A DNA stretch of 64,000 nucleotides from Synechococcus sp. BIOS-E4-1 (GTDB lineage: Bacteria; Cyanobacteriota; Cyanobacteriia; PCC-6307; Cyanobiaceae): assembly GCF_014279995.1 (NCBI RefSeq), contig NZ_CP047935.1, positions 531,243 to 595,242 on the forward strand, given 5' to 3'. The first letter of the stretch is position 1. Every line of letters begins with the position of its first letter. Positions 28,680-63,921 of the stretch are shown here, piece by piece. The position numbers and the translations under genes were made by a program. The notes under the pieces were generated by a model that was not told where the DNA came from, searched no databases, and saw nothing but the letters and a program-made list of their open reading frames with translations.

Positions 28680-28750
28680 GGCGGCATGGCCAAGTGGTAA
28701 GGCAGAGGATTGCAAATCCTTTATCCCCAGTTCGAATCTGGGTGCCGCCT
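28680..28750 (+). tRNA. tRNA-Cys (anticodon GCA)
   Basis: A 71-nt cloverleaf. The acceptor GGCGGCA pairs with TGCCGCC, with discriminator T. The D-arm contains GGTAAGG. The anticodon stem GAGGA/TCCTT encloses TTGCAAA with anticodon GCA. The T-arm is CCCAG-TTCGAAT-CTGGG. No CCA is encoded. It is divergent from the LpxB-related gene, whose start lies less than 60 bp away. Confidence 0.95.
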
Positions 28751-62113: not shown

Positions 62114-62290
62114 TTACAGCTCAAGCAGGCGGACCCTGAACTGAGCAACCTGGCGTGCCTGTTTTGGCTCTGACTGCACAAACGGATGATCGTTCAAATG
62201 GTCGATCACTGTTTCGATTTTTTCATCGATTGATTTGTTCTCAAGTTCGCCGCGCCTGAGACATTCCTTCCAGACGGGATCGAACACCAT
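62114..62290 (-). CDS. Small protein of unknown function
   Basis: A 58-residue helical protein from ATG 62290 (MVFDPVWKECLRRGELENKS). A TTG at 62347 in the same frame would add 19 residues (77 in all). Regular charge pattern (IDEKIETVIDHLNDHPFVQ) favours a folded helical pair. It lies next to the copy of the tRNA-Phe 3' end at 62364. No family recognised. Confidence 0.55.
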   Translation of the reverse strand: MVFDPVWKECLRRGELENKSIDEKIETVIDHLNDHPFVQSEPKQARQVAQFRVRLLEL

Positions 62291-62363
62291 GGCGAATCCG
62301 TCAGCGTTGTTGAACTGTCGATCGTCGTTAACCGGGATTGGAATCAATGAGCGGTTCTGCGAA

Positions 62364-62390
62364 GTGCCAGGACCAGGATTTGAGCTGTGG
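62364..62390. mobile_element. Degenerate duplicate of the tRNA-Phe 3' end (candidate att site)
   Basis: 27 bp here match 63848-63874 at 23 positions, including an uninterrupted 11-bp start that covers the tRNA acceptor end. The match is in direct orientation. This is the expected trace of site-specific integration at a tRNA gene. Conservation of the discriminator-acceptor end argues against a chance T-arm likeness. Confidence 0.7.
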
Positions 62391-62441
62391 GTGATGCGAC
62401 TATTGACCCGTTAAAACACTCAGCTTGGTTCAGCAGTAATC

Positions 62442-62472
62442 AAGACAACGCCTTTCAGCAAAGGCTTGTCTT
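62442..62472. other. Near-perfect hairpin beside the att-like site
   Basis: AAGACAA and GCCTTT pair with AAAGGC and TTGTCTT around loop CAGC, with one unpaired C. The stem has 13 pairs. No T-run follows on either strand, so termination is doubtful. Recombinase binding or transcript insulation is possible. It lies between the att-like site and the integrase fragment. Confidence 0.5.
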
Positions 62473-62560
62473 GCTGTTCCCATACCGCGTCCTTACGTTT
62501 GGTTCGGTTTGGCGGTACGTCCTTCGCCCTCCTGATCGTTGGCGTTGGTGAGGGAACTCT

Positions 62561-63262
62561 ATGTCTCGCTCTCTTCCCCAGAACTGGATCGACGGAACTC
62601 TGCACAGCCTGAATGTGCTGAGAGACCTGGGATGGCCAGGGGCGATCGTTCACCCATCACTGTCTGTCTTCCGCCAGAAACCAAGCGCCAAAAGCAGGAA
62701 GACCAAGAATCTTCAATGGCGTTTTCTTCCAGACAAGGCCGATGATCCGCGTCCCTTTGCGGGAAGAACCAACCGAGGACAAGGCAAGCGTCTGTCGATC
62801 GAGGGGACCTGTGGAACCACTGACCCCTGGGAGGCCGCAATCATTGCTGTGGCTGCGTCACAGGAGCGGTGGCGAAGCCTTCATCAGCAGCTGGAACAGC
62901 AGCAGCGTGAGCAAGGCCAGGCACTTTCCGTGTATTGGGAACGGTGGTATGCCCATGAAGAGCAGCAACCAAGGAACAATCGCAATCGCTGGTTGAGTGA
63001 CAAGCGGCACCTGTGGAATGGGCCCACAGGTCTTGGTCTCCAGCCCTGGGCGACCACTAAAAGGATTGAGCGAATTTCCAGCAACGATTTCCTGGAGTTT
63101 TTCCTCATCATTCGCAAATACTGTGAAGTGAAGGGAATCTCTGTGGACGACACCAGGCGCCAATACAAAACCCTGATCCGTAATCTCTTTAGGGAGGCGA
63201 AATCAGATTTTCCTGCTCTGAATTGTCCGCAGTTCCCTGTGATCAGGAAGCAAGTCAAGTAA
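62561..63262 (+). pseudogene. Truncated tyrosine integrase (N-terminal part only)
   Basis: The 233-residue frame matches the N-terminal and core-binding region of picocyanobacterial tyrosine recombinases: SVYWERWYAHEEQQ, NGPTGLGLQPWATTK, YKTLIRNLFREAKSDFP, CPQFPVIRKQV. It stops exactly where the catalytic domain (Arg-His-Arg-Tyr) should begin. No continuation in other frames is visible downstream. It is therefore a remnant of an element integrated at tRNA-Phe. The start is ATG 62561. Confidence 0.75.
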
Positions 63263-63848
63263 AGCGGCACTCTTGAAAAGTATTCATTCCCTTCGTCGGC
63301 CAGTGGCAGAAGGGTTAGAGATGTGCGCTAACACCGGTTCAAGAAGGCTTGTGCTGGTGAGTAGCAGGCATCCCTCTCCCTTGATGAGTTTCTGGGTGTT
63401 GTCTTGTAGCGATGTCCTACCCATGACCGGAGAGAACTCCACCTCCAGCACTCCCAGTCAGAAGAAGCCGAAGAGGCCTTCGCCGATGGTATGACCAATG
63501 CCGGAGCAGTTCGGCTCTGCAGTGGAGGCTGAAGCTTCGACTTTGTACCTGGCCAAACCGATGACCTGAATTGTGCTTTTGACGACTTTGTGTATCGATG
63601 CGATACACAAAAATAAGTACGTCCAGATGAAGGGGGTTGCGCAGGCTGCGGAAAACGCGAACAGGGGGAGCGGGATGGTCCGGAAAGCCATCCCGTTTTT
63701 TGTATTCATTCGGGGCGTTCTAGGTCCGTTGAGTCATGGCTGCACCTTTGCAGGTGCGGCGCATGGCCTCCAGGAATTCGCGAACTAAAAAGCACCGAAT
63801 CGTTCCATTACGGGGACCATTCAGTGCTCTTTGGGCGCTTAAGAAAGG
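63263..63848. other. Non-coding remainder of the tRNA-Phe element
   Basis: About 586 bp between the integrase fragment and the tRNA. Only short, unsupported frames occur (for example a 23-codon frame at 63423). A strong plus-strand terminator lies at 63671-63701. The integrase catalytic domain is absent in all frames I could read. The segment is likely decayed element sequence. Confidence 0.5.
63671..63701 (+). terminator. Rho-independent terminator in the element
   Basis: CGGGATGG pairs perfectly with CCATCCCG around a 9-nt loop and is followed by TTTTTT. It should end plus-strand transcription before it runs into the tRNA-Phe gene on the opposite strand. Confidence 0.92.
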
Positions 63849-63921
63849 TGCCAGGACCCAGATTTGAACTGGGGACACGGCGATTTTCAGTCGCCTGCTC
63901 TACCAACTGAGCTATCCCGGC
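63849..63921 (-). tRNA. tRNA-Phe (anticodon GAA)
   Basis: A 73-nt cloverleaf on the minus strand. The acceptor stem GCCGGGA pairs with TCCTGGC (one G-T pair); discriminator A. The D-arm is GCTC/GAGC with AGTTGGTA. The anticodon loop CTGAAAA has anticodon GAA. The T-arm is CCCAG-TTCAAAT-CTGGG. Its 3' end is the target of the integration event described in this window. Confidence 0.96.

Follow-up and report, generated by a model that had tools for sequence, protein, structure and literature searches.

A subgroup of tyrosine integrases that occurs in Prochlorococcus and Synechococcus at tRNA-Phe or tRNA-Cys was newly described by Flamholz et al. 2023 (cluster158946; PMC10187409). These integrases conserve the four catalytic residues R, K, R, and Y, often have a small serine recombinase nearby, and are distinct from the integrases of tycheposons; their integration sites were inferred from proximity, and the mechanism was called unknown (PMC10187409). 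Tycheposons, as reported by Hackl et al. 2023, likewise carry cargo and a tyrosine integrase and reside at tRNA genes in marine picocyanobacteria, and the Phe/Cys integrases were reported as a clade separate from them (PMC10187409). A general precedent is given by the Islander-type tRNA genomic islands, in which the target is restored at one end of the insert and a displaced fragment of it lies at the other (PMC4383910). We found the same architecture next to the phycobilisome rod genes of Synechococcus sp. BIOS-E4-1, but in contrast to those islands, the element is a remnant without an active integrase. The locus lies in a window of 64,000 nucleotides (the whole stretch of DNA that was analyzed) from the complete genome of 3.31 Mb, and its boundaries are as follows.

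62114 to 62347, minus strand: conserved 77-aa gene at the outer edge of the insert, directly following tRNA-Phe in empty genomes.
62364 to 62390, minus strand: displaced copy of the tRNA-Phe 3′ end, the outer att half; identical to 63848 to 63874 at 23/27 positions and extendable to a 43-nt repeat at 74% identity; position homologous to the tRNA end of empty sites.
62391 to 63846: element remnant between the two tRNA-Phe 3′ ends, delimited by repeat mapping and empty-site comparison.
63847 to 63921, minus strand: tRNA-Phe(GAA), detected by ARAGORN, into which the element integrated, with the 3′ end (63847 side) pointing toward the rod region.

The 27-bp direct repeat had been noticed in an earlier, sequence-only reading of this DNA, and it proved to be real. 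The displaced copy matched the 26-nt tRNA-Phe 3′ end at 22 positions, whereas the best matches in 100 simulated 64-kb windows (first-order Markov) were 16 to 20/26. The 25-nt displaced sequence did not occur a second time in the whole 3.31-Mb genome with up to three mismatches. Also, a scan of the window revealed no tRNA-Phe 3′ copy near 34.9 kb or beyond the rod region, where the earlier reading had advised a search.

The origin of the copy became evident when related genomes with and without an insert were compared. In empty sites (e.g., G006, G010, G021, G004, G009, G025, and G029), tRNA-Phe is joined directly to the 77-aa gene, whose homologue starts 17 to 18 nt past the tRNA-Phe 3′ end. 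Indeed, in the window the 77-aa gene starts 18 nt past the displaced copy, and a spacing of 17 or 18 nt was also found in G001, G002, G003, G011, G016, G024, G020, G014, G013, G030, G023, and G007, the occupied relatives with this spacing having inserts of 1.6 to 6.2 kb. Since the copy is spaced from the gene as the tRNA end is in empty sites, it is the original tRNA end that was pushed outward, and the insert is the stretch of 1,484 bp (start to start) that separates the two tRNA-Phe 3′ ends. This position of the copy relative to the 77-aa gene is the decisive evidence for insertion, and it bears out the earlier claim of integration at a tRNA 3′ end bordering the rod region, with duplication of att. 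If the repeat were a chance match between T arms and the neighboring 233-aa frame were unrelated to mobile elements, a certain likeness would still be expected, because tRNA T arms are alike (the 3′ ends of tRNA-Cys and tRNA-Phe match at 21/26 positions); however, the position of the copy is homologous to the tRNA 3′ end in empty sites, intact elements have perfect repeats, and the frame has clear full-length integrase homologues, so that the probability of this explanation is practically nil. The chance T-arm match was refuted by the empty-site comparison.

Two intact elements at tRNA-Phe were found in relatives, one of 7,889 bp in MU1642 (26/26 repeat, 475-aa integrase) and one of 7,367 bp in G028 (25/26 repeat, 463-aa integrase). 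In G019 (locus L074, positions 12393 and 15178), two displaced tRNA-Phe 3′ ends are stacked, one immediately preceding the integrase, which indicates two successive integrations at one site. Thus, in contrast to the published assignment from proximity (PMC10187409), the sites are defined here by exact duplications of the tRNA 3′ end and by empty sites.

Some further features of tRNA-Phe loci were observed. In empty genomes the 77-aa gene is on the same strand as tRNA-Phe and directly behind it, so that the tRNA promoter may drive its transcription; the insertion parts the two, and the leader of the element now precedes the gene (62114 to 62560). In G048 (locus L067), the gene homologous to the 77-aa gene lies about 8.2 kb from tRNA-Phe, but a clear displaced repeat was not detected. 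Another group of genomes has integrase-less elements of 2.2 to 3.4 kb at tRNA-Phe (L049, L050, L051, L052, L053, and L054), and three of those that were read contain two conserved minus-strand open reading frames (ORFs) of 220 to 234 and 179 aa.

The remnant itself contains the following parts.

62391 to 62560: leader from the displaced att to the integrase, with possible arm sites or a promoter (alignment of eight loci).
62561 to 63262, plus strand: N-terminal half of an integrase, 233 aa, without catalytic domain; the frame is open and under purifying selection.
63423 to 63532, plus strand: small membrane-protein gene, a broken remnant from whose interior about 150 bp are deleted.
63665 to 63701, plus strand: intrinsic terminator-like hairpin with a T run, common to the window and the close relative G024.

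The 233-aa frame had been read as a tyrosine-integrase gene cut off before its catalytic domain, with the reservation that it might have no similarity to integrases at all. A comparison with full integrases yielded full-length homologues of 458 to 481 aa. The frame is 70 to 71% identical to the N-terminal half of the 475-aa homologues, and it ends where the catalytic domain of the full-length proteins begins; judged by this alignment, it comes from a divergent tyrosine integrase, of which it comprises the N-terminal half, and the earlier reading of a gene cut off before its catalytic domain is borne out. Some of the full-length homologues are encoded in tRNA-Phe elements of 7.4 to 7.9 kb with repeats of 25 to 26/26, and the same integrase family was found at tRNA-Cys, where the 3′ end of the tRNA is duplicated at 26 to 30 of 30 positions. 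Among nine full-length sequences, R299, K331, R407, and Y445 hardly vary, and they are the four catalytic residues for which conservation was reported (PMC10187409). Profile searches recognized this family poorly: the 233-aa frame as the query gave no significant match in Pfam or PHROG, the full-length homologues gave none in Pfam, NCBIfam, or PDB-sequence searches, and one of four full-length homologues matched PHROG 1 "integrase" (E value of 2e-8, residues 70 to 455). Alignment of thin family profiles by hhalign with two tyrosine recombinases of the same genome revealed no similarity, no relatives were found in viral contigs (searched with the family alignment) or in phage records, and an AlphaFold model of the full-length MU1642 homologue, built with five sequences, had a mean pLDDT of 36.

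All of this resembles the Phe/Cys integrase elements (PMC10187409), which have the same hosts and the same two tRNAs as targets, a likewise divergent integrase that is missed by standard profiles and conserves R/K/R/Y, variable cargo, and a serine recombinase nearby, as in the intact elements of MU1642 and G028. The element therefore fits the picocyanobacterial Phe/Cys integrase family in published description, hosts, tRNAs, and residues. It could also be regarded as a classical Prochlorococcus-type tycheposon, given that a marine picocyanobacterium is the host, a tRNA is the target, the integrase is of the tyrosine type, and the cargo is variable. Moreover, Grebert et al. 2022 reportedly described rod regions that start at tRNA-Phe and suggested a tycheposon-like mechanism, in which case the general idea was already published. 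The assignment to tycheposons is nevertheless quite improbable, because the Phe/Cys integrases are set apart from tycheposon integrases (PMC10187409).

As a relative of the Phe/Cys elements, the element in the window has an integrase of the family and a tRNA-Phe site, but in contrast to the described elements (PMC10187409) it is 1.5 kb in size, has no complete R, K, R, Y domain, and retains a fragment of the integrase that is under selection. By its gene content, it is a remnant and not an active member of the family. Leader blocks such as CCCATACCGC...CCTTAC and GCGGTA are common to it and the intact elements in the alignment of eight loci, and no sigma-70 consensus was found in the leader (62391 to 62560). 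The small membrane-protein gene is intact, encoding 83 to 86 aa, in G001, G002, G003, and G011 (L034, L036, L057, and L058). The elements of MU1642 and G028 encode small serine recombinases of 175 and 218 aa (read by eye), and no such ORF is present in the 1.5-kb remnant. The cargo of the elements in G011 and G016 (L036 and L059) comprises a TPR-like lipoprotein and a 477-aa uncharacterized protein.

The truncation is not private to the window. The truncation point and the homologous DNA right after it are common to five genomes (G000, G024, G001, G002, and G003), and a search for the catalytic half in seven genomes that have the short form gave no match, although the query was positive in 6/6 controls. 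In four of the five genomes the truncated ORF is without indels; the DNA downstream of it has 3 to 9 indels and a lower identity. Pairwise omega values of the truncated ORF were 0.12 to 0.20, with upper bootstrap bounds below 0.36; in a neutral simulation, the minimum omega was 0.53 and less than 1% of the runs stayed free of stop codons. A codon model gave an omega of 0.165, and twice the difference in lnL to a model with omega fixed at 1 was about 130. Along the branches after the shared truncation, omega was about 0.16. These statistics demonstrate that the truncated integrase has been under strong purifying selection after the loss of its catalytic domain, which suggests that a DNA-binding protein was retained. 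A truncated integrase in five genomes and purifying selection on it appear to be new relative to the published accounts consulted.

That the fragment is a plain decaying pseudogene without function would agree with the missing catalytic domain, with the broken state of neighboring element genes, and with lesions in two relatives: residues 84 to 189 are lost in frame in G016, and a 1-bp deletion near the start of the ORF is found in G003, a single-cell assembly in which it is perhaps an error. In G011, the fragment ends about 8 residues earlier and is followed by different DNA. We consider a pseudogene unlikely, however, since omega is low on the posttruncation branches, indels are missing from four of the five genomes, and simulated neutral ORFs nearly always acquired stop codons. 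Thus, the retained N-terminal half probably has some function. What this function might be is suggested by analogy. Tn5 Inh and IS911 OrfA are truncated transposases that act as inhibitors. They are not homologous to the fragment, but as a possible parallel they also keep the DNA-binding part of a recombinase without catalysis, and we tentatively propose, at less than even odds, that the N-terminal half is a putative inhibitor or regulator at the tRNA-Phe site.

The sequence-only reading had gone further and proposed that the rod gene cluster was moved or replaced by such elements. Two additional features bear on this proposal.

28680 to 28750, plus strand: tRNA-Cys(GCA), the other tRNA that the integrase family targets, unoccupied in the window and with the 3′ end pointing toward the rod region.
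35427 to 60349: phycobilisome rod region with phycocyanin, phycoerythrin, pebA/pebB, lyases, linkers, and cpcG (NCBIfam matches), outside the att pair.

Transfer of rod genes between Synechococcus lineages is established (PMC2246261, PMC2441476, and PMC4139726), Larsson et al. 2014 observed that part of tRNA-Phe is duplicated next to pigment genes (PMC4139726), and the GC content drops from about 60% to 42 to 55% across the rod region. These observations would be expected if the element or a larger parent had carried the whole rod region and the 1.5-kb remnant were one edge of it. However, the displaced att sits between the rod genes and tRNA-Phe, and no att copy was found on the far side. In empty relatives, tRNA-Phe, the 77-aa gene, and the genes onward to cpcG are directly joined, and because this order is the same, the rod side is the ancestral neighbor of the tRNA and not cargo. 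The elements mapped in relatives fill only the space that separates tRNA-Phe from the 77-aa gene, or tRNA-Cys from the genes that precede the rod region, and are thus outside the rod genes at both tRNAs. Among these genomes, the integrase fragment has diverged to a synonymous distance similar to that of cpcG and the other genes of the flank (about 0.2 to 0.6 between the window and its two close relatives), as expected from shared vertical descent. Carriage of the rod region is therefore highly improbable, and for the genomes examined, these data show that the rod region was not mobilized by the element. The suggested loss of the outer boundary of a larger unit is not needed, since the 1.5-kb remnant has kept both of its boundaries, and the proposed mechanism of pigment-type exchange is not supported, the rod genes being outside the repeats in every genome mapped.

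In the window, no displaced tRNA-Cys end was detected: apart from the tRNA itself and the tRNA-Phe end on the other strand (23/30), no sequence matched at more than 19/30 positions. Among the 33 tabulated family genomes with both tRNAs on the same contig, tRNA-Cys and tRNA-Phe are at most 60 kb apart in 29, and in all of these (29/29) the two genes are convergent, with their 3′ ends facing each other; the remaining 4 are small genomes (1.7 to 1.9 Mb) in which the tRNAs are hundreds of kilobases apart. This interval contains the rod region both in the window and in those relatives that were mapped. The convergent Cys/Phe bracket appears to be new relative to the published accounts consulted. 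The two tRNA ends have a common T-arm core (21/26) in inverted orientation; thus, if the two recombined, the rod region would be inverted rather than excised, and no inversion of the rod region was seen in the loci examined. A more far-reaching combination of these ideas is conceivable, in which the half-integrase was domesticated as a putative DNA-binding regulator or site-occupancy factor at tRNA-Phe beside the rod region and the rod genes form an island between the two convergent att sites of one integrase family, with traffic at its edges driving pigment-type exchange via homologous recombination of flanking elements, but we regard it as doubtful.

The locus is very probably an old, immobile remnant of a Phe/Cys integrase-family element whose half-integrase has been kept by selection. 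Its history is reconstructed as follows. An ancestral element recombined into the tRNA-Phe 3′ end, restoring the tRNA at one end and, as the empty and occupied sites show, pushing the original 3′ end outward by at least 1.5 kb. The common truncation and the lack of a catalytic half elsewhere in these genomes show that the integrase lost its catalytic domain before the five sampled genomes diverged, which would have cost the element its mobility and fixed it in place, and in the genomes examined the rod region stayed as the ancestral neighbor. The N-terminal half would then most likely be a DNA-binding protein that is no recombinase and recognizes the leader or att DNA; modeled on truncated transposases that act as inhibitors, it might repress its own transcription and that of neighboring genes or block further integration and excision at tRNA-Phe.

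For the recently described Phe/Cys family, empty sites, displaced tRNA ends, and stacked insertions provide base-level evidence for the sites of integration. A tempting but unsupported account of pigment-type exchange, in which elements carry the rod genes, is removed, and the convergent Cys/Phe bracket offers a testable clue to the variability of the rod region. Should the signal of selection hold, the broken integrase would be a working protein of the host or the element beside a highly exchanged marine gene cluster.
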